Made by a program: the position numbers and the translations under genes. Of a stretch of 64,000 nucleotides of DNA, positions 48,736 to 62,551 are shown piece by piece. The notes under the pieces were generated by a model. The model ran no database searches, was not told where the DNA came from, and saw only the letters and a program-made list of their open reading frames with translations. This DNA is from Arcanobacterium sp. (lineage in GTDB: Bacteria; Actinomycetota; Actinomycetes; Actinomycetales; Actinomycetaceae). Numbering within the stretch: the first letter of the stretch is position 1; each line of letters starts with the position of its first letter. The stretch spans positions 124,001 through 188,000 of the forward strand of contig JALFSN010000001.1 of assembly GCA_022778805.1 (NCBI GenBank). Reading direction: 5' to 3'.

Positions 48736-48766
48736 TTTCGGAGTGCAGCAACACTTTCGGAGTGCA
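48736..48766. repeat. 12-bp direct repeat upstream of polA
   Basis: TTTCGGAGTGCA occurs at 48736-48747 and 48755-48766, a 19-base period, both followed by (A/G)CA-like sequence. It lies in the polA 5' region, where a promoter is expected. A GTGAC-GTCAC palindrome is at 48822-48834. Function unknown. Confidence 0.5.
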
Positions 48767-48933
48767 ACAGCATATGCGACACATGGCTGAAAAAATTCGA
48801 GCACCGATGCTGCACCAGCAGGTGACGAGGTCACACTAAGTGACAGGATAACGCCACGCGGAATAACATGTACCTTCACGAGGTACTCAACTATCACAAA
48901 TCAAAGGAATTGGAACAGCTCAGTACGACCCAC

Positions 48934-50235
48934 CTATATATTCGACGTTAAATCCACTTTCACTGCCCCAAGATCAGGAGCATCCCCACGGGTATTGCCA
49001 AAATGTGCAGAGTTCATTCCTGCATGAAGCTTGACAGTCACGTGCGCAGTGGCAAAGCCGGAGCTAAATGATCCTGTACTGAGGTTCTTGAGCGTAAAGA
49101 AATCACCGTTCACGCGCACTTGAAGATCTCGTGGCACTCCACTGCGGTATTCAATAGCGAGCGAGTAGTAGCCATCTTCTGGGGCATATATATTGGTGAG
49201 CGTCACGCCATTTCCCTCACCACCGACCCAACGCGTTGTACCGTGATCGGCTCGGGTAACACCTAGCATTACGCCGTCTGCACTACGAATCAAGGCTCCA
49301 CGTTCTGGTATATACTGATACGCACGTATGTAGTCCACTTCAAATATCTTTGGGTAAGGGATAGAGGAATCAAACGGACCAGTCCAAGATTTTTCCTCAC
49401 GTTTTTCATAGATCCCCAGATACATCAGCATAGGATAATCAGGCGACATTCGCGATGAAAACCTCTCCGTTCCATCCACAAAAACCTTCGTACCAGTGGG
49501 CGTCCAGTCAAAACCATACGTATGAAAATCTTCAGACAAATCAGTACCCGTAGAAATTTTTGACGTGCGAGGGAAGAGATGCCGCCAGTCTCCCCACGGA
49601 TGTATGGCAGCTTGTGCGACTGAAGCATGATTCCGACCGAGAATTTCGAAAATATCAAACTCCCCGTTTTGCCGGCTGACGCCCGAATCGCCATCAGGAA
49701 GATCTTGGTTCGCACCCGTCATCCACCATGCACTGTGCAAACCGCCTCCACGAGCAGCCTTAGCGCGTACTTCAAAGTATCCATATTTTTGAAGATGCCC
49801 ACGAAATGGGGTGGTCTGGCGAGCAATACTGCCGTAGTTCGTCCATTTATGTAGGTAATCACGTTGGTATGTCTGAAGCGAAGAAACTCTTGTTGAACCG
49901 TCATGATCCGGATCCCATGCGATACTGTCCTCATCAATACGCAGTTTCAACGTGCCACCGCTCACTTCGTAGCGCGCTTTGGTACCTGGCGATGTCGACC
50001 AGTGCGGTAAATAATAGTTAGTGAAAAGCAAAGTATTCACATCCGCCCCGTTGAACTCATCGGAGGCCGTCAATATCATCCCTTCGCGGTGTGGCGAAGC
50101 AGGATCAATGACGCTTTCTACTGGAGGAACACTTTGATTTTGTTCTCCTGCAGCTTGTTCTCCTGCAGCTGCCGCTCCACCCATTGCTGCTGCAAGGGCG
50201 ACGATAAGAATAATGGCAATCATCTTCAGCTTCAT
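48934..50235 (-). CDS. Secreted GH16 endo-glycosidase with C-terminal carbohydrate-binding-like domain
   Basis: A 433-residue secreted glycoside hydrolase. The signal peptide spans about 1-24, followed by a Gln/Glu-rich linker. A GH16 jelly-roll domain spans about 50-310. Its active site NGEFDIFE places the nucleophile Glu at 192, Asp at 194 and acid/base Glu at 197, the ExDxxE form of laminarinase, agarase, porphyranase and kappa-carrageenase branches. Residues about 315-433 form a beta-sandwich resembling CBM35/CBM6 modules. No cell-wall anchor is visible. It is the last gene of the ABC/GH36 operon, seven bases after GH36. The substrate (beta-glucan or beta-galactan) cannot be fixed from sequence. 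Confidence 0.88.
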   Translation of the reverse strand: MKLKMIAIILIVALAAAMGGAAAAGEQAAGEQNQSVPPVESVIDPASPHREGMILTASDEFNGADVNTLLFTNYYLPHWSTSPGTKARYEVSGGTLKLRIDEDSIAWDPDHDGSTRVSSLQTYQRDYLHKWTNYGSIARQTTPFRGHLQKYGYFEVRAKAARGGGLHSAWWMTGANQDLPDGDSGVSRQNGEFDIFEILGRNHASVAQAAIHPWGDWRHLFPRTSKISTGTDLSEDFHTYGFDWTPTGTKVFVDGTERFSSRMSPDYPMLMYLGIYEKREEKSWTGPFDSSIPYPKIFEVDYIRAYQYIPERGALIRSADGVMLGVTRADHGTTRWVGGEGNGVTLTNIYAPEDGYYSLAIEYRSGVPRDLQVRVNGDFFTLKNLSTGSFSSGFATAHVTVKLHAGMNSAHFGNTRGDAPDLGAVKVDLTSNI

Positions 50236-50242
50236 AACGTTC

Positions 50243-51784
50243 TCACTTCACCAAAAGACGGTCAGAAATACGACCAGTCGAGTTGAGGTAGGGGGCGAAA
50301 TCGATGCTTTTCCCATTGATGCGGTAGATATAGCGGGCACTGCGTTCAATGACTGGGTGCTCACGAGCAGCACGAATCCACGCCTGCACACGTTCTCGCT
50401 CTGCAGGATCAAGCCACGATACAGGGTCAGAGCATTGAGCAAACCTGCACACTAGCGCTACGTCAGCAGTGAGAGCATTCACTTCAGGCGACAAGAGCGA
50501 GCCGCGCGTGCGAAAGAAAGCCACGTCGGGATCGACATCAATGAGCGGGTAGAGCCATGTGCGTGAGAGTGAATTGCGGATTGCATTGAGCACGGATGGC
50601 CCTGTGGGATCTTTGATCCGCTCCGTATTATCCCAATACGGAGCGGTATCTGGGCCAACTCTCACACCATCAAGCACGCCAAGAGAGGCGTTCATCACGG
50701 CTCCTGAACCGAGCAGATACACCTCGTCTCCAACCGCGTCACGAATAGTCTCAAGCCCTAGGCGATACGCTTGTTCGCGATCCATCCCGCTCGACCGCTG
50801 CGCAGCAATCGCTCCAGCATAGAGGAAATCGAGTTTGAACATGTCGATTCCCCAACCAGCAATCTCACTCATGGTGTGTGCAAGCCACTCGTGGGCCATG
50901 GGGAGAGAAAGATCAAGTCCATAGTAATTGCGTCCCCAATTAAATCCTGCCAGGGCAAGATTTCCATCTTCATCGTGCAAAAAAAGCTCAGGGTATTTTT
51001 GCACCACCGGAGCATCTGGCATCGCAATAAATGGTGAAATCCATAGCCCAGCTTTCATTCCATGATCGTGGATTCGAGAAGCGAGATCTGCTATGCCACG
51101 GGAAAACTTTTCGTTCGCTCGCCAGTCTCCAATAGTTTTTTCCCAACCGTCATCAATTTGGATTGTTCCATAACCTAAGCGCTCAGCTTCAGCAGTTTCA
51201 TCCGTAATAATGCTGTCAGTAATCTCTTCAAACCAGGAATACCACGAGGACCAAATCGGGCCGAGAAATTCGAGTGCACGCAAGGGAGAACGCACTTTGC
51301 GAGTCTCTGCAATCGCCGTCGTGTATGCCTCGAACGTCTCTATTTCCGGCCCTTCTGCAACAAACCAACGAGCGTCCGCACTGGAACTAGATGCTTCAAT
51401 GCTCCCTGCTGCGACGCGCAAAATTGGAGAATTTCCCTCTAATATGCCAACCAGAAGTACTCTGCCAGAATCAGATTCGACGGCGGTGAGCATATATGAA
51501 AGATGATCCGTTTCGCTATCAGTCGCTGCGTCTTCTGCAGTCAGCGTGCGCTGCGGTTTATCCCACACGCGCCACGGTTCACGCTGCACATCCCACCAGC
51601 GAGTTGATGACCACGAAGTCCACCCATGGCGAAGGAAATGAGAGCCAAATGGATGAGATACGGTGAGGCTTGAACCGCTAGCCTCGTATGCCTTCACACG
51701 AGTATTGTGTGAGGTGACGGCGCCAGAAAGGGGGCTCACTCTCGCGCCAATGGTGAGTCTGCCTGAGTCAGTGTCAATAATCAT
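50243..51784 (-). CDS. GH36 alpha-galactosidase, short bacterial type
   Basis: A 513-residue cytoplasmic enzyme without signal peptide, similar in size and layout to the Thermotoga GH36 alpha-galactosidase rather than the ~730-residue type. The N-terminal beta-sandwich is followed by a barrel with IQIDDGW and the nucleophile Asp about 319 in FKLDFLYAG. The acid/base Asp is about 379 in RVGPDTAPYW. The 60-residue spacing equals that recalled for the Thermotoga enzyme. It would remove terminal alpha-galactose from imported oligosaccharides. The ATG at 51784 has AGGA seven bases upstream. A perfect hairpin separates it from the binding-protein gene. Confidence 0.9.
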   Translation of the reverse strand: MIIDTDSGRLTIGARVSPLSGAVTSHNTRVKAYEASGSSLTVSHPFGSHFLRHGWTSWSSTRWWDVQREPWRVWDKPQRTLTAEDAATDSETDHLSYMLTAVESDSGRVLLVGILEGNSPILRVAAGSIEASSSSADARWFVAEGPEIETFEAYTTAIAETRKVRSPLRALEFLGPIWSSWYSWFEEITDSIITDETAEAERLGYGTIQIDDGWEKTIGDWRANEKFSRGIADLASRIHDHGMKAGLWISPFIAMPDAPVVQKYPELFLHDEDGNLALAGFNWGRNYYGLDLSLPMAHEWLAHTMSEIAGWGIDMFKLDFLYAGAIAAQRSSGMDREQAYRLGLETIRDAVGDEVYLLGSGAVMNASLGVLDGVRVGPDTAPYWDNTERIKDPTGPSVLNAIRNSLSRTWLYPLIDVDPDVAFFRTRGSLLSPEVNALTADVALVCRFAQCSDPVSWLDPAERERVQAWIRAAREHPVIERSARYIYRINGKSIDFAPYLNSTGRISDRLLVK

Positions 51785-51812
51785 CGCTTTTCCTACAAGG
51801 AGAGACTGATCA

Positions 51813-51843
51813 GTGGGGCGACTGGAGCTTCCAGTCGCCCCAC
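51813..51843 (-). terminator. 14-bp perfect intra-operon hairpin after the binding-protein gene
   Basis: GTGGGGCGACTGGA (51813-51826) pairs perfectly with 51830-51843 around a 3-base loop, between the binding-protein gene and GH36. No U-tract follows. Such stems commonly protect the abundant binding-protein mRNA and lower expression of downstream genes. Some transcription must pass, because GH36 has no obvious promoter of its own. Confidence 0.65.
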
Positions 51844-51899
51844 GTAGTGACTGCAAAAAGAATCACTGGAATTTGAAAAGATTCACATCGTGCGCATTC

Positions 51900-53264
51900 T
51901 TATTTCTTAGTGGAAAGAAGTGCATTCACTTTTGTGTTGAGTTCGGGCAAAGCCTGAGCAGGATTAGCCTTGAGCTGCTCGATATTGTCAAACACCACCT
52001 GCGCTTCTGAAGCGATCTCATTGGCCTTGTCCGTAATCGGATAATAGGCGAGATTCTTTGGGTTTTGAGCAATATCAAGGAATGCAGAAACATCCACACC
52101 CTTATCTTTGTGAGTCTGTGCCGCCTTCTGCGAGAACTCAATCATTGAGGGGAAAACGATCGCATCCTGTGCGACGATCGACTGGCATTTATCCGAGGTG
52201 AGGAATTTAATCCACTGATAAGCCCCTTCTGGGTTCTTTGCCTGCTTCGTAATAGATGGAGCCAGACCGTTGATGATGGTCTTTTGCCCTGCCGGACCAA
52301 CTGGAAGCGGTGCAAATGCAAACTTATTGTTTGTCGAGGATGACCACAGGTTAATACGCCATGAGCCGTCAGGAATCAGGGCGGCTTTGCCCTGCTCCAT
52401 CATTGGCTCCAGCCCTAGCGGCCCTGCGATATCAAGCGGAGTGACGTATCCTGCCTCAATCTGTTTCTGCCACCAAGAAATCGTTTCAATAAGCTTAGGA
52501 TCACTCATCTTGTATTCAGTGCCGAAAGGATTCTTGTCTAGGTACTCGAAGCCATTAGCTAACGCCAGCCATGACCACTGTCCTTGACCAACGATTCCGC
52601 CACCCTGTTCAAGACCCCAGCCGTAAACAGCTACTTTCGTTTTGTCAAAGCCCGCTTCATCGCCACGTTTGCCATTCTGATCAACACTCAGATGAGCAAT
52701 CAACTTGCCGAACGTTCCACCATCAGTTGGGTTCCAGGTGAGGTTCTTCAAATCTTCAGCTTTATATCCGGCATCAGCGGCCATCTTCGTGTTGTACACC
52801 AGAGCAATCGTGTCCCAATCTTGCGGAATGCCATAACGCTTTCCATCTTTCACCCATAGATCCGCGAGCTCTCCGGTGTACTTCGAGAAATCGACGTCCC
52901 CATCTTTCATATACGCATTCAAATCCAGAAGTTGACCTTTACCCGCAAGCTCTGGATAGTACTGCACATGGTTGGTAATGACGTCAGGTGCCGTGCCAGA
53001 CACGAGGTCAGTTGTGAGGTTGGTCCAATAGTCGTCCCATCCTTGCTGTTCAATCTTGATCTTAATTCCGCTCTCTTTTTCAAAAGCGTCCGCGCACTTC
53101 TGATAGGTGGGCTGCTGCCCTGGATCCCACAAGCGATACGTAACCTCTTTGGAATGCTCACTATCACCTTTGGCTGCACCAGAAATCGACGTACCATTTC
53201 CGCACGCAGCTAAAACCATTGTTGCTGCAGCAGCACAAGCAACAATTTTCCATTTTCCTGCCAT
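51900..53264 (-). CDS. Sugar ABC transporter substrate-binding lipoprotein
   Basis: A 454-residue family 1 extracellular solute-binding protein. The signal peptide ends in the lipobox VLAAC, then comes a Ser/Gly linker and the typical YRLWDPGQQPTYQKCADAFEKESGIKIKIEQQGWDDYWTNL start of the mature fold. Aromatic residues are frequent, as in oligosaccharide binders. The ATG at 53264 has AAAGGAAAAAAG upstream and is chosen over the longer reading. It follows two permease genes; no ATPase is encoded, so a shared MsmK-like ATPase elsewhere must energise it. Confidence 0.93.
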   Translation of the reverse strand: MAGKWKIVACAAAATMVLAACGNGTSISGAAKGDSEHSKEVTYRLWDPGQQPTYQKCADAFEKESGIKIKIEQQGWDDYWTNLTTDLVSGTAPDVITNHVQYYPELAGKGQLLDLNAYMKDGDVDFSKYTGELADLWVKDGKRYGIPQDWDTIALVYNTKMAADAGYKAEDLKNLTWNPTDGGTFGKLIAHLSVDQNGKRGDEAGFDKTKVAVYGWGLEQGGGIVGQGQWSWLALANGFEYLDKNPFGTEYKMSDPKLIETISWWQKQIEAGYVTPLDIAGPLGLEPMMEQGKAALIPDGSWRINLWSSSTNNKFAFAPLPVGPAGQKTIINGLAPSITKQAKNPEGAYQWIKFLTSDKCQSIVAQDAIVFPSMIEFSQKAAQTHKDKGVDVSAFLDIAQNPKNLAYYPITDKANEIASEAQVVFDNIEQLKANPAQALPELNTKVNALLSTKK

Positions 53265-53329
53265 CTTTTTTCCTTTCGACATCATCGTCGGTTAACAGAT
53301 ATTTTCTGGAGTTAAACGTACTGGGATTC

Positions 53330-54217
53330 TCATTTCGCCGCCGTCAGCCCTAATGAATTCACGAGTTTACGGCCAAAGATGAGAAGTAAAATAAACATCG
53401 GAATGATCTGCAAAGTGGCTGCAGCCATCAAACCTGCCCAATCTGGGCGAGTAGACGGAGAGGACTGCGCAAACACGGATAGTGCCACGTTCAGTAACCG
53501 CACATTCTCAGCTTTTGCGATGAGCTGCGGCCACAGGTACTCATTCCAACCGAATACCGCTTGAATGATCGCAAGGGTGGTAATCGGCGCCGAGCACATT
53601 GGCACAATCATCTTTGTAAATACGGTCCAACGCGATGCTCCATCGAGTGCTGCAGCTTCTTCAACCTCACGCGGAAGCGACAACATAAACTGACGCAAGA
53701 AGAAAATCCCGAAAGGACAGATTAAGGCATACGGCGCTAGTAAGCCTTGGAATGTATTAATCCATGCCAGCGAATCCATCAAAACAAAGTTTGGCAAAGC
53801 GACAAAGATCGGCGGAATCATCAGAGCCGTTAAAAGTATGACGAAGATAGTATCGCGACCGCGGAAATGTAAACGAGATAGCGCATAGGCAGCCATCGTC
53901 GAAGTCAGCACTTGCGCAGCTACCAAAATGGCAACGAAAATCAGTGAATTGCGCATGTAGAGCCAGAAGTTAATCGTTGCAGCAGTCCCTCCAGCAGCAA
54001 TATTTTCCTCGGCCGTCGTCATTCCCAAAACGCGTTCAAAGTTAATGAGCGTTGGATGTTCAGGAATCGGTGAATAATTTCCCGAGAAAATCTCTGCATT
54101 GGGAGTCAAGGCCGTGCGTAAAGCCCATAGCAGCGGCGTCACGGTGACGAGAATGAGCAAAATCAACAATCCCCAGCCTGCAATTTTTTGGGGCGAATAT
54201 TTCCCTGTCCGTTTCAT
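53330..54217 (-). CDS. Sugar ABC transporter permease, MalG type
   Basis: A 295-residue permease with six predicted membrane helices and the EAA loop EEAAALDGASRWTVFTKMIVPMCSAP that contacts the ATPase. The C-terminal hydrophilic end is typical of MalG partners. It starts 14 bases after the MalF-type gene. Confidence 0.93.
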   Translation of the reverse strand: MKRTGKYSPQKIAGWGLLILLILVTVTPLLWALRTALTPNAEIFSGNYSPIPEHPTLINFERVLGMTTAEENIAAGGTAATINFWLYMRNSLIFVAILVAAQVLTSTMAAYALSRLHFRGRDTIFVILLTALMIPPIFVALPNFVLMDSLAWINTFQGLLAPYALICPFGIFFLRQFMLSLPREVEEAAALDGASRWTVFTKMIVPMCSAPITTLAIIQAVFGWNEYLWPQLIAKAENVRLLNVALSVFAQSSPSTRPDWAGLMAAATLQIIPMFILLLIFGRKLVNSLGLTAAK

Positions 54218-54231
54218 GTATCTCTAACCCC

Positions 54232-55194
54232 CTAGACCATATCTGACTCGTTTGAGCGCGCTAACGTGAGTTGAATGAGCGTCGCCACAACCAGCACCAG
54301 CATCAACACCACAGCCATCGCCGAGGCATAGCCCATATCGAACTGTTCGAAGGCTTTCTGATAGATATACAGATAGATCACGCGCGTCGAGTTTCCAGGC
54401 CCACCACTCGTCGCCACAGAGACTGTGTCGAAAATCTGGAAAGAACCGATCATCGACACCACCATGACCATGACCAAAATTGGCCGTAGAAGCGGCAGAG
54501 TGACGTACCGGAAAGTTTGCCACGCCGAGGCCCCCTCGGTCTCCGCCGCCTCATAAAGCATCGTTGGAATCGTCTGCATTCCGGCAAAGAGAAGAAGACC
54601 CGTGTATCCCATATTTCGCCACGAATTCACCAATGCCACTGTGTAAATTGCCAGATCCGAATTTCCGTAGAATGAGATTGGCCCTACCCCGAGATAACCA
54701 ATCACATGATTGAGCAATCCCACCGTAGGATCGAGAATAAAGAGCGTGATCGCCGCAATGGTGACGTTCGGAACCAGCCACGGGAGTAAAAGAGTGGAGC
54801 GGACAAGCACTGATTTCGACACCCGCTGCATTAAAACCGCAATGACAAGCCCCAGAATCATCTGCGTCGTAATATTGACAACCACATAAATCACGGTGAC
54901 CTTGATGGCATTCAAAAAAGTGTCATCATGGAACATTCGCGTGTAGTTTTCAAACCCCACCCAGTGAGCTTCTTCAAGGAGGTTCCAGTCGGTGAACGAC
55001 ATACGGATTCCTTGAATAATGGGCCATAGGTAGAAAATGACAAAACCGAGCACGGATGGAAGCAGGAAGAACAAGGCCGCACGAGCGTCACGTCTCCTGC
55101 GGGCTTTACTTCCCACAGGAGTCCCTCTCACGTGACCTGTCGAATAGACGTCACGTCGTTTCTCCACCTTCTCGGCATCATCGAGATGCATCAT
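54232..55194 (-). CDS. Sugar ABC transporter permease, MalF type
   Basis: A 320-residue permease with six membrane helices. The Lys/Arg-rich N-terminus is followed by a first helix (AALFFLLPSVLGFVIFYLWP), and the EAA loop is YEAAETEGASAWQTFRYVTLPLLRP. It is the first gene of the five-gene operon. The ATG at 55194 has AGGGAAGCA upstream. Its promoter region contains the repeat array at 55227-55299 and is shared with the divergent ROK gene. Confidence 0.93.
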   Translation of the reverse strand: MMHLDDAEKVEKRRDVYSTGHVRGTPVGSKARRRRDARAALFFLLPSVLGFVIFYLWPIIQGIRMSFTDWNLLEEAHWVGFENYTRMFHDDTFLNAIKVTVIYVVVNITTQMILGLVIAVLMQRVSKSVLVRSTLLLPWLVPNVTIAAITLFILDPTVGLLNHVIGYLGVGPISFYGNSDLAIYTVALVNSWRNMGYTGLLLFAGMQTIPTMLYEAAETEGASAWQTFRYVTLPLLRPILVMVMVVSMIGSFQIFDTVSVATSGGPGNSTRVIYLYIYQKAFEQFDMGYASAMAVVLMLVLVVATLIQLTLARSNESDMV

Positions 55195-55226
55195 TGCTTC
55201 CCTTTCTATGCTTGTGGCTCTTTCAC

Positions 55227-55299
55227 CGTCATTGCGCACCATTACGCATGACTGTGTGTCATCGCACGTCATTGCGCATCGTCAATGCGTTATTGCGTC
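55227..55299. repeat. Degenerate GTCATTGCGCA repeat array between sugar operon and ROK gene
   Basis: About six copies of a GTCATTGCGCA-like unit lie here: CGTCATTGCGCA at 55227-55238, CATTACGCATG at 55240, GTCATCGCACG at 55258, an identical CGTCATTGCGCA at 55267-55278, GTCAATGCGTT at 55281 and ATTGCGTC at 55292. They sit between the operon start codon and the ROK promoter, downstream of the likely operon promoter. This suits an operator array, but the binding protein is not known. Confidence 0.6.
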
Positions 55300-55366
55300 T
55301 CAAACAGTGAGTGAATTTGCCATACAGATATTATTAAGTTACTTTCTTATATATGTCAAACAGTGA
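55300..55366. repeat. TCAAACAGTGA direct repeats flanking the ROK promoter
   Basis: Identical 11-mers lie at 55300-55310 and 55356-55366. The first sits at the expected -35 of the ROK gene (a -10-like TATTAT is at 55329-55334). The second begins three bases into its coding sequence. This layout suits autorepression by the ROK protein. The half-site TCAAAC resembles XylR-type operators. Inferred. Confidence 0.5.
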
Positions 55367-56549
55367 AAAACTTTCGCACGGTGCGTCACGACGGGTACAG
55401 CGCAGAGTTAATCTACTCAACACTTATTCCCAGCTTTCAACAGAGCCACAGACAATTAGCGAAATTGCAAGCAGCATCGCGGTTTCACGTCCTGCGGTCG
55501 AAGCAATCATCGCTGACCTCGATTCCCTCGGTTGGATCTCTCAGCTGCCGCCTGATAACGCTTTTGGCCGGCCAGCAACGCGCTGGGCTCTCAATCCATC
55601 CGTTATTCACGTACTTGGTCTCGATATTGGCGCCCATCACTGCACCGCTGTCGTTGCTGACTTAGCCGGAACAGTGCACGGTGAAAACACGCAATCGCTT
55701 CAGCAAGACCTCCCCGCTACTGATCGACTTGCTGCCGCGACTGCTGTCGGGAAAACAGTTCTCAAACAAGCACAGCTCACATACGATGACATAACCCTCA
55801 TTTGTGTTGCTTCTCCAGGAGCGATAGACGCCGGAACAGTGACCTACTTTGGTGGCAATGGCATGCCTGGATGGGAGGGCACCAACATCACAAATGGCAT
55901 AGCGTCTCTCACTGGATGCGCCACACTTGCTGCGGGCGACTGCGCCCTCGGCGCGCTCGGTGAATCATGGCTAGGCGCAGCCGCCGGCCATGCGGACGTT
56001 GTGTATCTACTATCAGGGCAAAGAACTGGCGCCGCGGCTATTATCGATGGGCACGTACACCACGGCCACCTGGGCAGCGCCGGCCTCATTGGCGAACTTA
56101 ACCCCTTGCATTGGAAAGACATCGAAAGCAGCGAATTCTCACGAGGTGCCTATGGGCAGCCCAACCCCGACCGTGAACGCATCTTCCTCGACGCGAAAAA
56201 CGGCGATGCCATAGCACAGCAAGCCGTAGAAACTTTCGCGGATTACCTATCCCTGGGCGCTGCCGCCATGGTTCTCGCGCTAGGCCCCTCGCACCTCGTC
56301 ATCGGCGGAACATATTCGGCATACTCCGAACTTTTCCTTGATCGCTTTACCGCTCAGCTCTCCCGATGGTGCCCTGTGATGCCGGAAGTATCCGTTTCCG
56401 CGCTCGGACGTCATGCCATCAGTCTCGGTGCTGTACGTTACGGACTTGATTCTCTCACACAATCACTTAATGCATTCGTACGATCTTCTGACATTTTCCC
56501 ATCAGTCGAAGGATTCCGTGCTCTCTACCGTCCACACAGTCACAAATAG
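55353..56549 (+). CDS. ROK-family transcriptional regulator of the ABC/GH operon
   Basis: A 398-residue ROK repressor. The N-terminal winged helix is at about residues 20-75 (ISEIASSIAVSRPAVEAIIADLDSLGWI), followed by an actin-like sugar-binding domain (LGLDIGAHHCTAVVADLAG; CVASPGAIDAG). The usual Cys-rich zinc motif seen in many ROK proteins is not evident, where the second ROK protein in this window has it. It is divergent from the sugar operon and probably controls it. The ATG at 55353 has no ribosome site and a very short predicted leader, so near-leaderless translation is possible. Confidence 0.9.
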   Translation: MSNSEKLSHGASRRVQRRVNLLNTYSQLSTEPQTISEIASSIAVSRPAVEAIIADLDSLGWISQLPPDNAFGRPATRWALNPSVIHVLGLDIGAHHCTAVVADLAGTVHGENTQSLQQDLPATDRLAAATAVGKTVLKQAQLTYDDITLICVASPGAIDAGTVTYFGGNGMPGWEGTNITNGIASLTGCATLAAGDCALGALGESWLGAAAGHADVVYLLSGQRTGAAAIIDGHVHHGHLGSAGLIGELNPLHWKDIESSEFSRGAYGQPNPDRERIFLDAKNGDAIAQQAVETFADYLSLGAAAMVLALGPSHLVIGGTYSAYSELFLDRFTAQLSRWCPVMPEVSVSALGRHAISLGAVRYGLDSLTQSLNAFVRSSDIFPSVEGFRALYRPHSHK

Positions 56550-56668
56550 TGCCACGGCAATGCATTGAGGAACAGCAGTGCCATTCAAACAGTTGCAGTT
56601 CAGGCAACCATGGCAACATCTCGTCTCGCCTGACCGATGAGATCGCTTCCGCTACGCACTGCGCGGAT

Positions 56669-58213
56669 CTACGCGCTCCGCGGGCGCAGCTGGGCGCGCA
56701 CCTGCGGCTGCATAATATCCGCGGCTGGCCGCCCCGAGCGCAGCAGCCGCGCCATTGCCACCATATCGGGCTTAATCGTCTCATAGAAATGTTTATATCC
56801 CGCGCACAGATAGTTGAGTGCGCGCTCAGAGTGCTCAACCTGCCTACTGTGCCCAGCCTGCCCAGCTGCGCAATTCTCACTGCCCGCACCCGCTCCGCCA
56901 CCAGCGGGCACAGTCACAAACCGATCTTTCGGGCAGCCTCCATTGCAAAAGCGGCGAACGGAACATCCCCTACACTGTTCGGGCAGTAAGACATTTTTTT
57001 TCTTGGCAAACTCTTTCATCCGAGGAGTGTTTACCAACTCTTGAAACGTCTGCGGCGCAGAAGAATGGCCAGCCACATTGCCCAGCAGCCACTCTGGCTC
57101 CACCCAGTGATCGCAGACGTAGACGTCGCCATTAAATTCCATCGCCACATTATTTCCACACTCAGGAGCGTGCACACACACACTCGCTTGCCCAAACATG
57201 GCCGCCAGCGCCGCATCGAAATCCTGCACGAACACTCGCCCTACGTCAGCCGTGATCCATTCGTCGAACACCTCGCACAGAAAAGTCCCGTAGGAATGCG
57301 GATCGACGCTCCGTGAGGTGACGGCGTTGCCACGTTGCCGATAGAGCAGTGCCCCTCGCTCCCCTTCTGCCGAGCCGTTCTCCCCTGCCTTTCTGGCCTT
57401 TCCCACAGCAGCACGCCAGCCTTTTTCCGCCTGCGCAAGATCGGCTTCTTCCACGCGCTCAACGATCGGAATGAACTGAATAAACTCGGCACCGAGCGTA
57501 TCGCGGAAGTAGCGATAGACCTCCCGCGGATGATCTTGATTGGCGGCGTGTACCGTGCACAGAATATTGCATCGCACCCCCGCCTTACGCAGTAATTCCC
57601 ACCCACGCACCACCTGAGCGTGGCTTCCGCGTCCCGCCCGATTGACGCGAAAACGATCATGCATCGGCTCTGGCCCGTCAATGGAGACGCCCACGAGGAA
57701 ATCGTGGCGCGCAAAGAAATCTGCCCACTGTTGCGTAATCAGCGTGCCATTGGTTTGAAGTGCGTGGTGAATGATTTGGTTTGGCCGGCGCAGGCGCTGT
57801 GCCATCTGCACTGCACTGGCAAAGAAATCGATGCCGCGCAGCGTCGGCTCTCCTCCCTGCCACAAAAACGTGACGTCGCCATCTGGATGTGCATCCAAAA
57901 ATGCGCGGATATAACGCTCAAGCACCTGCTCGCTCATCTGCTGCTGGCGATGATTGTAGAGCAACTCTTTAGAAAGGAAAAAGCAATAGGAGCAGTCGAG
58001 ATTACACGCTGATCCGGTGGGCTTCGTGACGACGGAGAGCGGAACGTGGCGCGGGAGACCTCTCCTTTTCACGCCGCCGACACTCATGCCGTTTGCACTG
58101 GCGCTGCTTGCACTCACGCTGCTTATACCGCCAGTGCGATCACTGCCTGTACTATCAGCGCGCTTTGCCTCGCGAGCGGCGCGCGAAGAGTCTTCCTGCG
58201 AATTCATCTCCAT
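56669..58213 (-). CDS. Anaerobic sulfatase-maturating radical SAM enzyme
   Basis: anSME converts the sulfatase active-site Cys to formylglycine without oxygen. The 514-residue protein has the radical SAM motif CNLDCSYC (Cys70, 74 and 77) and conserved WQGGEPTLRG. The SIDGP segment carries the likely base Asp. The SPASM domain has many Cys (CVHAPECGNNV...YVCDHW...CRGCSVRRFCNGGCPKDRF). A hydrophilic N-terminal extension of about 45 residues precedes the core. Two starts, two codons apart, are possible. It is last in the operon MFS-sulfatase-ROK-maturase and converges with the plus-strand ROK gene. Confidence 0.93.
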   Translation of the reverse strand: MEMNSQEDSSRAAREAKRADSTGSDRTGGISSVSASSASANGMSVGGVKRRGLPRHVPLSVVTKPTGSACNLDCSYCFFLSKELLYNHRQQQMSEQVLERYIRAFLDAHPDGDVTFLWQGGEPTLRGIDFFASAVQMAQRLRRPNQIIHHALQTNGTLITQQWADFFARHDFLVGVSIDGPEPMHDRFRVNRAGRGSHAQVVRGWELLRKAGVRCNILCTVHAANQDHPREVYRYFRDTLGAEFIQFIPIVERVEEADLAQAEKGWRAAVGKARKAGENGSAEGERGALLYRQRGNAVTSRSVDPHSYGTFLCEVFDEWITADVGRVFVQDFDAALAAMFGQASVCVHAPECGNNVAMEFNGDVYVCDHWVEPEWLLGNVAGHSSAPQTFQELVNTPRMKEFAKKKNVLLPEQCRGCSVRRFCNGGCPKDRFVTVPAGGGAGAGSENCAAGQAGHSRQVEHSERALNYLCAGYKHFYETIKPDMVAMARLLRSGRPAADIMQPQVRAQLRPRSA

Positions 58214-58367
58214 CTTCTCCCTGCTGCCACATCATCTCTCTATTCATGCGCGTCACTATGCTAATGCGTGCCGCAGCAGCAATCATCTCCATCCAGAAGC
58301 ATCTACGCAGAGCTCTCAGCTAAGAGAGATTCTCCTGGCGAGAACTTCAGGCGAGAAAGGGACACCA

Positions 58368-59519
58368 CTAGGCTGGATAGCCTTCCATACCTGATTCAGT
58401 ATCACTCTCATCGACGGCGTAATTGGCCGCCAGCGCTGCACCCAGAGCTGAACCGATTTTCCCGAGACTCGCTTTTTGCACCGTCACGATCTCATGAAAC
58501 ATCGGAGAGAGTGAATCGAGGATAGCTTTGCGCAACAGTTGCGGAAAATCAGGAATAGCATCGACCACTTCTCCAGCACAGAGCACTACCTGGGGACTGG
58601 CAGTGAGCACGAGCGATGCGAGTACGTTGCCCACCATGCTCACGGCACGTTCAATAGCTGTGCAAGCGCGTTTATCATGGCGTGCATACGCAGCGCCTAG
58701 TTGCGCGAGATGCGGCACTCCCGCAGCTTCGCACAGCGCGCGTGATGAGGCCACTGTCTCCAAGCATCCCGTGCCACCGCAATAGCACGGATCCGTGAGC
58801 CCACTCACGTGCACATGGCCGAGTTCACCTGCATATCCGGCTTGTCCGTGCGTAATTTGATCGGAGATCACCACACAGCACCCCAGACCCGCGCCGAAGC
58901 GCACATACACGTAGCTCCCGTATCCTTTGCTAGCTCCCCAACCATTCTCGCCAATGGCAGCTAGCCGCACAGTGTTCTCCACTAAGGTTGGAGCGTTCCA
59001 GCGTCGTTCAATAACTGTGCGCACCTCGTCAAGCACCTGTGAGTACTCCGGAGAATCCGTCCCGAGCGGCACCGGAATCCCAACACCCACTCTGGAGATA
59101 TCCTGCATCTGCACATGCTGCCGCTCAGCAGTGCTATAGAGCATGTCACTGGTACATTTCAGCGGCTCATGCCACCCCTGAAAATCGTCGATGTCGAGCG
59201 TCACTGTGGCTAATACGTCGTAATGCCGATTCAAGACGACGGCACAGCAGCTAGAGCGAGAGATCTCGATACCTACGCGATACCCCACCTGGCTATTGAA
59301 ATGTAACCGTTCCACAGGGCGCCCACGCGAGCCGGCAGATTCCTTAACCGATGAGATAAAGGCGCCCTCAGCTGCTATCTCGTCAATGGCTCGTCCCAAC
59401 GACGTGCGGGAGACATCGAGCCATTCGCACAGTTCCTGGCGCGTGGCATCGCCCACGGCGAGTTCTCCAATCACGAGATCGGAGAGCCGTGGGCGAAGCG
59501 GACGCATGACGTAATCCAT
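58368..59519 (-). CDS. ROK-family transcriptional regulator of the sulfatase operon
   Basis: A 383-residue ROK protein with an N-terminal HTH (RQELCEWLDVSRTSLGRAIDEIAAEGAF) and a ROK domain. The glucokinase-like GVGIPVPLG, ELGHVHV and the zinc motif CYCGGTGCLE are all present. It probably represses the sulfatase operon and is released by a sugar ligand. It begins 18 bases after the sulfatase stop with only a weak ribosome site; an ATG four codons later is possible. Bifidobacterial sulfatase clusters are also recalled to contain ROK regulators. Confidence 0.9.
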   Translation of the reverse strand: MDYVMRPLRPRLSDLVIGELAVGDATRQELCEWLDVSRTSLGRAIDEIAAEGAFISSVKESAGSRGRPVERLHFNSQVGYRVGIEISRSSCCAVVLNRHYDVLATVTLDIDDFQGWHEPLKCTSDMLYSTAERQHVQMQDISRVGVGIPVPLGTDSPEYSQVLDEVRTVIERRWNAPTLVENTVRLAAIGENGWGASKGYGSYVYVRFGAGLGCCVVISDQITHGQAGYAGELGHVHVSGLTDPCYCGGTGCLETVASSRALCEAAGVPHLAQLGAAYARHDKRACTAIERAVSMVGNVLASLVLTASPQVVLCAGEVVDAIPDFPQLLRKAILDSLSPMFHEIVTVQKASLGKIGSALGAALAANYAVDESDTESGMEGYPA

Positions 59520-59537
59520 ACAGCACCACTAGCAGTA

Positions 59538-61076
59538 CTAGTCGAACTTCACTTCGTCGAGATCGGAACGAGCCGTATTGACCAGTGGAACATCGAAATC
59601 AACCATCGCCGCCATCCACTTTGCAAAGGAGTGATCCCCACGCTGGCGCAGTTGCCGATAGAGCTCCGTAGCTAAATCTCGGCGTACGGCGTCATACACA
59701 GGCACGGTGTAGACGTTGTTGATCTCCCCAGGGTCTTTACGCAGATCATAAAGCTCATTGATCGATTCCGGAGAAATAATGAGCTTGTAATCACGGGTGC
59801 GGATCATGCGCTGCTGCAGTGGGAAGTGGTGCCCGTGGAATTCGCACACGATATTCTCACGCCAACCAGGTACGTCTTTCCCACGGGTGAGATCCACAAT
59901 CGAGCGGCCATCTTCCACGAGGCTGGTGTCGATGCCTGCTACGTCGAGAATCGTAGCGGGGATATCGAGGATAGATACGAATGCATCAGACTGCCCCACT
60001 GTGGAGACCCCAGGAATATGAGCAATAAACGGCACTCGATAAATGTCGTCATACATGGCGGGGCCTTTGTCGTTCAGCCGGTGAGATCCCGTGAATTCTC
60101 CGTGATCAGCGCTGAAGAATACTGCCGTGTCGTCCAAGATTCCAAGCTCTTCTGCCACTTTCATAATGCGGCCAATCTCAAAATCAATCATGGAGACGTA
60201 TCCCCAATACACGGCGATGAGTTTCTTCCACTGCTCTACGCTGAAATCTGACGTGGACCAGTAGGTGGCATAATTTTGCTGTACCTGTGGCTTGCCGATC
60301 AGTGAGTCCGCAAAGTTGTCCGGTAGCTCCACCACATCAGGATCGATGAGGTCAAACCATTCGTCGGGCAGGAAGTAGGGCAAATGCGGTCCGAAGAAAT
60401 GCACTTCCAGATTGAATGGCTGCTTGTGTTCTTTCCAGTCTGCCGCATATTCGCGCAATTTCTCAATAGCCCGATCGGCGAGGAAACGCTCAAACGTGGC
60501 CTCTTCCGGTTGATAGAGTCGGGCGGCGATAATGTGCCCATCGCGGTTGCCAGGGAGCTTTCCGCGGTAGACGTCGTGAGCTCGCACTGGAGGCAGATTA
60601 TTTTCTTCCAGCCAGGCTACGTACTTCTCGTTCGCCACCGGATTTTCAGCTCCCCAGTAGGAATCGTCATCCATGCCAAACTTATCTGGCAGATTTCTGC
60701 CACAGTGGTATTTGCCTACAATGCCGACGTTGTATCCGTGATCGCGCAGCTCCTGAGTGTACGTCCACGAGCCCAGCGGAATCGCCGTCTGATAGGCGAT
60801 ATTCCATTCATCATTCGCCACGACCTTGTGCTTGAACGGATACTTGCCAGTCAAGAGCGACGAACGAGCAGGTGTACATATTGCCGTGGGGGTATACGCA
60901 TTGGTGAAGGCAAAACCGTTGTTGCCCATGCGATCCAGATTCGGTGTCTGCACATAGGGATTCCCCAGGCACCCGATGGTGTCGATGCGGTGCTGATCCG
61001 TCATGATATTGAGGATATTGCGCACATTATCAGGGATACTGCGCTCTTTCGCGGCTACCGCGTTTTCTTGCGACAT
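59538..61076 (-). CDS. Cys-type sulfatase
   Basis: A 512-residue S1-family arylsulfatase-like enzyme. The activation motif CTPARSS has the Cys at residue 67 that becomes formylglycine. The N-terminal NIMTDQHRIDTIG carries metal-binding Asp, and a later FFSADHGEFTGSHRL completes the metal site. No signal peptide is seen, so it acts in the cytoplasm on an imported sulfated sugar. The ATG at 61076 follows AAAGGAGAAAAA. The neighbouring maturase is needed for activity. Which sulfate ester it cleaves is unknown. Confidence 0.93.
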   Translation of the reverse strand: MSQENAVAAKERSIPDNVRNILNIMTDQHRIDTIGCLGNPYVQTPNLDRMGNNGFAFTNAYTPTAICTPARSSLLTGKYPFKHKVVANDEWNIAYQTAIPLGSWTYTQELRDHGYNVGIVGKYHCGRNLPDKFGMDDDSYWGAENPVANEKYVAWLEENNLPPVRAHDVYRGKLPGNRDGHIIAARLYQPEEATFERFLADRAIEKLREYAADWKEHKQPFNLEVHFFGPHLPYFLPDEWFDLIDPDVVELPDNFADSLIGKPQVQQNYATYWSTSDFSVEQWKKLIAVYWGYVSMIDFEIGRIMKVAEELGILDDTAVFFSADHGEFTGSHRLNDKGPAMYDDIYRVPFIAHIPGVSTVGQSDAFVSILDIPATILDVAGIDTSLVEDGRSIVDLTRGKDVPGWRENIVCEFHGHHFPLQQRMIRTRDYKLIISPESINELYDLRKDPGEINNVYTVPVYDAVRRDLATELYRQLRQRGDHSFAKWMAAMVDFDVPLVNTARSDLDEVKFD

Positions 61077-61111
61077 TTTTTCTCCTTTGAAAATTGCTGT
61101 CATGGTGTGTG

Positions 61112-62551
61112 CTAGTCGCCCATTTCTTCCAAGCTCTTTCCAGCTGTCTCCTTGACGAAGAGACCTGTGAAGATGACGGCGAGGACCCCGAACACGAAGA
61201 AGATCCAGTAAACTCCGGCCGGCGACCAGTTCACTAAGAACGGGAACAGCAGTACGACGATGAAGTTCACAAGGAAGTCAGTACCCGAGGCAATCGACAT
61301 GGCACCACCACGGATCTCATTCGGGAACATCTCTCCCATCATGATAGAGAAGATCGGCCCCCATGACGAGGTAAAGCCCAGCAAGAAGAGGCACAGTGCG
61401 CCTACCGCAAACCATCCGAGCACTGGAGCCTGCGTGAGATCAACGCCATTCTCACCGTGCGGAGCGATAGTGAAGACAGTGGCGACAATGCCGAGAGCCA
61501 CAAAGATCAACCCTCCACCGTACATCAGCATGCGCTTACGTCCTACGCGATCGACGAGCAAAATGCCAGCGGTGACGCCGATGATCTTAAATACCGACAG
61601 AATCAGCGTCTGCTGGAAGCTAGAATTCTCACTGAAACCTACTGCCTGGAAGAGCATATTGGAGTAGAAGAAAATTCCGTTCGTACCGGTGAGTTGCTGG
61701 AAAGCTGCAATTGCTGCTCCCACGAGCACCAGCCCGCGCCACTTGGAACCCATAATCTGAATGATGCCCATTTTGACGACTTCGTTAGCACCGAACGAGG
61801 CTCGAATTGCATCTATAGAGGCGTCGAGATCTTGCTCAGCACTAACTTTTTCCAAGATTTCTTTCGCTTCGGCGTCACGCCCCACAGAGACTAGGTACCG
61901 AGGAGATTCAGGGATGATCGCCGTGAGAATCATGAATGCGAGAGATGGAATGAGCAGGCACAGGAACATCCACTGCCACGCTTTGAGCCCCAGCGCAGCG
62001 ACGGCGTCAGAGCCACCAGCCGCATGCGAGACAGAGAAGTTAATAATGGCAGCGAAGAGGAGACCCAAAATGATGGCGAGCTGACGGAAACCAATAAGAC
62101 GCCCGCGAATATCCGCTGGGGCAATCTCCGCGACGTACCCAGGCGCGACGGTTGTGGCGGCTCCGAAGCCGATACCGCCGATCACGCGGCAGGCAATCAG
62201 GAAGAAATAACCGCCCAGCACTGGAGAAAAAGCTCCGAAAATAGCTTCAAAAAGCAAGAATGGCCCAACCAGCATCAGCGTGGTTTTGCGCCCGATTTTA
62301 TCGGAGATGCGTCCGGCGAAGATGGCACCGATAAAGCCGCCAATAATGCCTGCTGCTCCGGCCACGCCTGCAGCGACTGGCCCGAGCTTAAAATCCGAGC
62401 CTACAGCAGCAATAGCACCGTTGAGCACCATTCCTTCAAAGCCATAGAAGAATGGACCAAGAGTAGCAATGAGAGCAAATAGTGTAGCTCTTCGTCGTGC
62501 TTGTATCTGCACTAAACTGAGACGAGATTTATCTACAGCAACGGTCGGCAT
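61112..62551 (-). CDS. MFS sugar porter
   Basis: A 479-residue major facilitator of the sugar porter family with about 12 membrane helices. Family motifs are GRISDKIGRKTTLML (loop 2-3), PESPRYLV (after helix 6) and DRVGRKRMLMYGG (loop 8-9). As the first gene of the sulfatase operon it probably imports the sulfated substrate, as the MFS protein AtsT does in Bifidobacterium breve. The ATG at 62551 has a strong AGGAGGAAAATA site; a longer reading adds 44 unrelated residues. Confidence 0.92.
   Translation of the reverse strand: MPTVAVDKSRLSLVQIQARRRATLFALIATLGPFFYGFEGMVLNGAIAAVGSDFKLGPVAAGVAGAAGIIGGFIGAIFAGRISDKIGRKTTLMLVGPFLLFEAIFGAFSPVLGGYFFLIACRVIGGIGFGAATTVAPGYVAEIAPADIRGRLIGFRQLAIILGLLFAAIINFSVSHAAGGSDAVAALGLKAWQWMFLCLLIPSLAFMILTAIIPESPRYLVSVGRDAEAKEILEKVSAEQDLDASIDAIRASFGANEVVKMGIIQIMGSKWRGLVLVGAAIAAFQQLTGTNGIFFYSNMLFQAVGFSENSSFQQTLILSVFKIIGVTAGILLVDRVGRKRMLMYGGGLIFVALGIVATVFTIAPHGENGVDLTQAPVLGWFAVGALCLFLLGFTSSWGPIFSIMMGEMFPNEIRGGAMSIASGTDFLVNFIVVLLFPFLVNWSPAGVYWIFFVFGVLAVIFTGLFVKETAGKSLEEMGD

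Follow-up and report, generated by a model that had tools for sequence, protein, structure and literature searches.

The closest known counterparts of the gene sets considered here are glycan-degrading systems of Clostridium perfringens, Ruminococcus gnavus and Bifidobacterium breve. In the glycoside hydrolase (GH) subfamily GH16_8, one endo-beta-1,4-galactosidase has been characterised, and members are found in Firmicutes and Actinobacteria (Viborg 2019, PMC6827312). The alpha-Gal epitope is a substrate of EndoGalC from C. perfringens (PMC4009860), the GH36 enzyme of R. gnavus ATCC 29149 is upregulated by mucin (PMC3808388), and the neighbouring ats2 genes of B. breve UCC2003 (Bbr_0849, 0851-0853) comprise a NagC/XylR-type regulator, a sugar transport protein, the sulfatase atsA2 and the arylsulfatase regulator atsB2 (PMC5144078). 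Here we analyse a window of 64,000 nucleotides (G000:C2:124001-188000) from a 1.99 Mb genome of the Arcanobacterium group, Actinomycetaceae, in which the interval between polA and pdtaR holds 14.2 kb of sugar genes. We favour, with moderate confidence, a stepwise gain of this block: an ats-type module would have come first and a cassette of ROK1, ATP-binding cassette (ABC) importer, GH36 and GH16 genes second, the latter for the release of an alpha-galactosyl (alpha-Gal) sugar, its import and its cleavage in the cytoplasm.

The block consists of two sugar modules stacked in one gap, and these are probably of different age. The original prediction, which saw a single acquired island of about 14 kb, was right about the block itself: ten genes lie at the predicted positions, Pfam and NCBIfam searches of the ten proteins agree with the families proposed, and the flanks are polA, rpsA, coaE and uvrB on one side and a response regulator-ANTAR protein, i.e. 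a pdtaR-like one, on the other. The single island has to be abandoned, because the closest relative, G002 (96% identity in pdtaR and 94% in uvrB), carries the distal half only. In blastn, the match between G000 and G002 runs through polA to position 48747 and resumes only at 56680, within the terminal part of anSME. Module A is this unmatched stretch of 7.9 kb; it comprises ROK1, two permeases, a binding protein, GH36 and GH16 and is absent from G002; module B, with the order MFS-sulfatase-ROK2-anSME, occupies the same place in G002, at identities of 87, 96, 85 and 70%, respectively.

Nine other genomes of the same genus, including G002, G005 and G009 (A. pluranimalium), were compared at this site. 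The gap is shorter than 0.7 kb in seven of them, 6.8 kb long in G002 and 6.5 kb long in G005; module B is present at this place in one of the nine (G002), and module A is not common to all close relatives. The gap of G005 (L052:2601-8755) contains a ROK and a GH20 gene (both by Pfam), two permease genes (by tblastn) and a binding-protein gene (by eye). One and the same gap holds three different sugar-gene sets in three related genomes, G000, G002 and G005. For the family, 141 genomes were drawn (G003 outside the draw) and 136 could be measured, 14 of these by extrapolation from partial polA matches; the other five were left out, G127 for its two contigs, G151 and G216 for want of a polA match, G160 of a pdtaR match and G147 of both. 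The gap is shorter than 1.5 kb in 118 genomes, 1.5-4 kb in 6 and at least 4 kb in 12. A family-wide hotspot of sugar genes between polA and pdtaR was also considered and is unsupported, as the long gaps examined outside the clade carry other genes: ABC genes in g39 (five loci alike at the DNA level; Pfam on one open reading frame, ORF), oligopeptide transport in G108 and, in G201 (L179:1211-7683), genes for a GH116-like enzyme, a LacI regulator and a sugar-binding protein next to polA, the distance to pdtaR being 28.5 kb.

The two modules also differ in composition. As background, 100 ORFs of at least 250 aa were called mechanically from 188.7 kb of G000. In GC content at third codon positions (GC3), five of the six genes of module A do not exceed the 6th percentile of this background; the mean GC3 of the module is 0.513, and both the mean GC3 and the codon score fall under those of all 60 contiguous six-gene background blocks. 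The four genes of module B, at GC3 percentiles 37-84, are within the range of their 76 four-gene blocks. Four module A proteins, concatenated for 18 genomes, give a tree in which the G000 copy groups with those of Trueperella, Actinotignum and a third genus, g33, at 100/100 and is the first branch of that clade (92/94 for the rest); A. pluranimalium and G005 have sister copies (100/99) in a separate clade. The reference uvrB tree, with its weakly resolved backbone, places G000 with G002, the deeper branches being weak; G005 yielded no uvrB match. The top identities of the module A proteins are 87% for a permease, 79% for the binding protein, 62% for GH36 and 67% for GH16, and the GH16 tree is mostly unresolved.

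Thus, module A is missing from the nearest relative, is atypical in composition and has a phylogeny discordant with uvrB, a reference that is itself weak at depth. These are the marks of a laterally acquired region, and the tree supports a foreign origin with the donor unnamed. The acquisition that was originally proposed is in this way supported for module A, which is not an ancestral block of ordinary codon use shared by all close relatives; for module B, shared with G002 and ordinary in codon use, it is less clear. A separate observation concerns L038, a contig titled Tissierella sp., which matches module A nearly as the Varibaculum loci do; its title may be wrong, or the record may be a mixture.

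Several findings weigh against acquisition from another genus. The GC3 of permF is ordinary (60th percentile). Composition separates module A from its own genome and names no donor, because the locus of g33 (L161, median ORF GC3 0.46) and that of the same-genus A. pluranimalium (L048, 0.515) are both as low as module A. L035 stands at 0.54, and four carrier loci measured in Actinotignum and Trueperella have medians of 0.67-0.87. A g33-like donor, considered on grounds of composition, was dropped in view of the equally low GC3 of the A. pluranimalium locus, which also weakens the explanation that we favour. The tree, moreover, would fit an ancestral module A that was lost by the relatives, since the backbone is weak and the genera are close in uvrB: Trueperella (85% identity to G000) and Actinotignum (83%) are nearly as close as the same-genus G009 (86%). 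Module A could then be old family heritage, moved to its site within the genome, and this would agree with the occurrence of GH36 relatives in 53 of the 213 Actinomycetaceae genomes over which all homologues were counted, and with the position of the G000 copy as the first branch of its clade. We nevertheless regard this as unlikely: G002 and G005 do not have this subtype, G005 and G009 have another, and neither in GC3 nor in codon score does module A fall within the blocks of its own genome. Still less probable, in our estimate, is a gain of the whole 14 kb at once, with later loss of the proximal half in G002. It would account for the adjacency of both halves at one site, but the modules differ in composition and in nearest relatives, and in G005 a set of the module A type and an ats set are on separate contigs (C12 and C40).

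The borders show no repeat that would indicate an insertion mechanism, which is a further point against acquisition. No direct or inverted repeat of at least 9 bp joins one end of the 7.9 kb insert, or of the whole block, to the other, and no direct repeat of this length was found at the borders of the G002 block. As the original prediction had it, no integrase or transposase is visible: a Pfam scan of the ten block proteins, smaller ORFs not being scanned, yielded no mobile-element gene. Within these ten proteins and for repeats of at least 9 bp, the block thus has neither the integrase or transposase nor the attachment repeats or target duplication of an integrative mobile element. A tRNA-Leu (CAA) gene was discarded as an integration site, being located beyond pdtaR, outside the block. 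Recombination via polA was considered as well; the polA protein is 79% identical to that of G002 (98% for rpsA), but two polA segments show 76.7% and 76.8% DNA identity, so that identity does not change in the direction of the insert, and no such event is claimed. On the polA side, where the similarity to G002 stops, the 11-bp repeat TTCGGAGTGCA occurs twice in 48737-48766, with no partner at the other border.

As to function, module A probably serves the use of alpha-galactosyl host glycans, judging from its protein sequences. The N-terminus of GH16 looks, by eye, like a signal peptide. Among solved structures, residues 45-309 match 1UPS, the C. perfringens EndoBGalGnGa, with an E-value of 9.3e-39 against 3.6e-10 for the next structure, a lead of 94 bits; for a profile of 10 sequences the values are 1.4e-49 and 5.6e-16, a lead of 111 bits, with beta-glucanase structures far lower. 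The residues E192, D194 and E197 of the ExDxxE motif are invariant in all 10 aligned sequences. By sequence, then, the nearest solved GH16 enzyme is an endo-beta-galactosidase that releases GlcNAc-alpha-1,4-Gal (GlcNAc, N-acetylglucosamine; Gal, galactose), and a placement of both in GH16_8 would follow from this structure together with the description of the subfamily. The C-terminus gives a profile match (E 4.4e-5) to 2wz8, which we take to be a carbohydrate-binding module (CBM) of family CBM35; searched alone, it has no Pfam match and weak PDB matches (best E 0.005). GH36 has a melibiase domain, matches the alpha-galactosidase 6LCJ best (E 5.1e-95) and keeps the motifs KLDFLYA and RVGPD.APYWDN, the Asp residues of which are presumably catalytic. 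The importer lacks its own ATPase, as originally noted: there is no ATPase gene among the ten, and one MalK/UgpC-type ATPase is encoded elsewhere in the genome.

GH16 relatives (E 1e-60 or better) are present in 12 of the 213 genomes, and all 12 carry GH36, always at most 5.5 kb away; the hypergeometric probability of this co-occurrence, 2e-8, ignores kinship and so overstates independence. In Actinotignum sanguinis (L031:1427-5301), a galactokinase and a galT-like gene adjoin the module, and G000 itself has a galactokinase. Outside the 12 genomes, L050 has a distant GH16 (32%) in the vicinity of its GH36, and two short stretches of GH16 (L047:11600-11778), which look like a decayed copy, adjoin the GH36 of Actinomyces mediterranea.

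Gal-alpha-1,3-Gal would be the preferred sugar, because EndoGalC of C. perfringens digests the alpha-Gal epitope. However, the product of the closest enzyme characterised so far is GlcNAc-alpha-1,4-Gal, a disaccharide that a GH36 alpha-galactosidase should not cleave. The cassette might, then, be directed at another glycan, such as mucin capped with GlcNAc-alpha-1,4-Gal, Gal-alpha-1,4-Gal or alpha-galactosides from the diet, and the target of GH16 would then be a beta-galactan or a beta-glucan. Moreover, the core of importer and GH36 may serve other alpha-galactosides, because 41 of the 53 genomes with GH36 are without this GH16. We consider another glycan a serious possibility, though not the likelier one; it is opposed by the proximity of all 12 GH16 genes to an alpha-galactosidase gene, by the galK/galT-like genes next to the module in A. 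sanguinis and by the far lower scores of the beta-glucanase structures.

A candidate for control of the operon lies in the region between permF and ROK1. An alignment of 12 such regions (G000 and 11 others) reveals a common block of 30 columns, conserved across genera far better than its surroundings: its mean identity is 0.89, and the next block reaches 0.74. It reads TTGACA-N17-TAATAAT toward the importer, with a conserved spacer, and overlaps the start codon of ROK1. In a promoter scan the block ranked first of 13 (11 of 12 positions), the scan overall being no richer in sites than shuffles. When up to 3 mismatches are allowed, the pattern, which derives from the same alignment, has a single site in the complete genome; with up to 5 substitutions it occurs in 14 of the 20 named GH36 loci, a set that includes near-duplicates, and nowhere in 2.96 Mb of shuffled loci. 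It is missing from L037, L042, L044, L045, L047 and L049, among which L047 shares the gene arrangement. With a divergent ROK gene and a conserved intergenic site, the arrangement is that of a ROK-regulated operon, and 55330-55359 is likely to be the ROK1 switch, a putative operator.

Module B has all the parts of an ats2-type set, namely an MFS transporter, a Cys-type sulfatase, anSME and a ROK regulator. Sulfatase relatives (E 1e-90 or better) occur in 46 of the 213 genomes, and a sulfatase tree obtained with a quick method mixes genera at weak support. The nearest structures span carrageenan to mucin sulfatases, and the substrate is not readable from them; a B. breve glycosulfatase study reportedly had GlcNAc-6-sulfate as substrate. 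The module B sulfatase found no match in one B. breve metagenome-assembled genome, and an alignment of six sequences before the ats MFS gene gave no convincing conserved operator. The anSME proteins of G000 and G002, far less alike than the sulfatases, differ mostly by long insertions of skewed composition.

Taken together, a stepwise history can be envisaged. Most of the family has a short polA-pdtaR gap; in the lineage of G000 this gap would have been filled in at least two steps. In the first step, the ats-type module shared with G002 would have been established, with the MFS protein importing a sulfated sugar, a cytoplasmic sulfatase activated by anSME, and ROK2 in control. In the second, the self-contained cassette of ROK1, promoter-operator, ABC importer, GH36 and GH16 would have been inserted next to polA, on the near side of the ats module; its source would be akin to the Trueperella, Actinotignum and g33 copies but is itself unsampled among the genomes compared. 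The secreted GH16, kept near its substrate by the CBM35-like domain, would cut an internal beta-galactosyl bond and yield a Gal-alpha-Gal disaccharide, most likely the Gal-alpha-1,3-Gal of the alpha-Gal epitope. The importer, presumably driven by a shared MalK-type ATPase, would take up the disaccharide, and its cleavage by the cytoplasmic GH36 would supply galactose to the Leloir pathway. ROK1 would sit on the spacer of the one TTGACA-N17-TAATAAT promoter, leaving it when the sugar is present.

More tentatively, one can envisage both that Actinomycetaceae carry a transferable, self-regulated cassette for foraging on the Gal-alpha-1,3-Gal of non-primate mammals and that the gap is an integrase-free exchange site at which cassettes are swapped between species in one clade of the Arcanobacterium group; we put this forward as a conjecture. 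The locus offers a testable model of host-glycan feeding by animal-associated Actinomycetaceae, some of which are opportunistic pathogens, and a case of three genomes in which one chromosomal gap holds three sugar-gene sets with no visible mobile element. If GH16 releases Gal-alpha-Gal, actinobacterial enzymes would join the small group of those that remove the alpha-Gal epitope.

The features of the block are collected in Table 1. The longest ORF of permF extends to 55272, and the start at 55194 is favoured by its Shine-Dalgarno sequence (by eye); the MFS start was likewise chosen from the Shine-Dalgarno sequence and is the same in G002.

Table 1. Features of the polA-pdtaR interval (positions in the window)
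Feature	Position	Strand	Basis
GH16, endo-beta-galactosidase-like	48934..50235	-	PF00722; EFDIFE catalytic motif; CBM35-like C-terminus; nearest structure 1UPS
GH36 alpha-galactosidase	50243..51856	-	Melibiase; no signal peptide by eye (cytoplasmic)
Sugar-binding protein, ABC importer	51900..53285	-	SBP_bac_8/SBP_bac_1
ABC permease, MalG/UgpE type	53330..54217	-	BPD_transp_1; NCBIfam below cut-offs
ABC permease permF, MalF/UgpA type	54232..55194	-	Pfam, NCBIfam; start by Shine-Dalgarno (by eye)
Promoter TTGACA-N17-TAATAAT, probable ROK1 operator	55330..55359	-	Faces ABC-GH36-GH16 operon; alignment of regions
ROK1, ROK-family regulator, divergent	55353..56549	+	Pfam, NCBIfam
anSME, radical-SAM sulfatase maturase	56669..58213	-	TIGR03942, 418 bits against a cut-off of 349
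ROK2, ROK-family regulator	58368..59519	-	Pfam, NCBIfam
Cys-type sulfatase	59538..61103	-	PF00884; CTPAR motif and no signal peptide, both by eye
MFS sugar porter	61112..62551	-	TIGR00879 above cut-off
Module A extent	48748..56679	.	DNA with no G002 counterpart between polA and anSME (blastn)

Some sugar ABC importers are known to use a shared ATPase of the MsmK/MsiK type, and the importer of module A is likewise made up of two permeases and a binding protein with the ATPase elsewhere; its pairing with this ATPase is presumed. No account of the module A cassette was found among the titles and abstract beginnings searched, which is weak evidence of absence as most subscription papers lie outside that search. 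Unlike the genes of EndoBGalGnGa and EndoGalC, the GH16 gene described here is linked to those of an importer and an intracellular GH36. Its product has a CBM35-like C-terminus, whereas about 75% of GH16_8 members are reported with CBM32 (PMC6827312). R. gnavus ATCC 29149 combines a GH98 endo-beta-galactosidase with an intracellular GH36 (PMC3808388), i.e. it follows the same logic of an endo-enzyme outside and an alpha-galactosidase inside, although the endo-enzyme belongs to another family, GH98 there and GH16 here, and the two R. gnavus genes are not known to share an operon. Module B corresponds in gene content to the ats2 set of B. breve, but differs in its order, MFS-sulfatase-ROK-anSME, and has no nagA or nagB among the ten genes. 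The parts are of known kinds; their arrangement in a cassette and the differing content of one gap among three related genomes are new.

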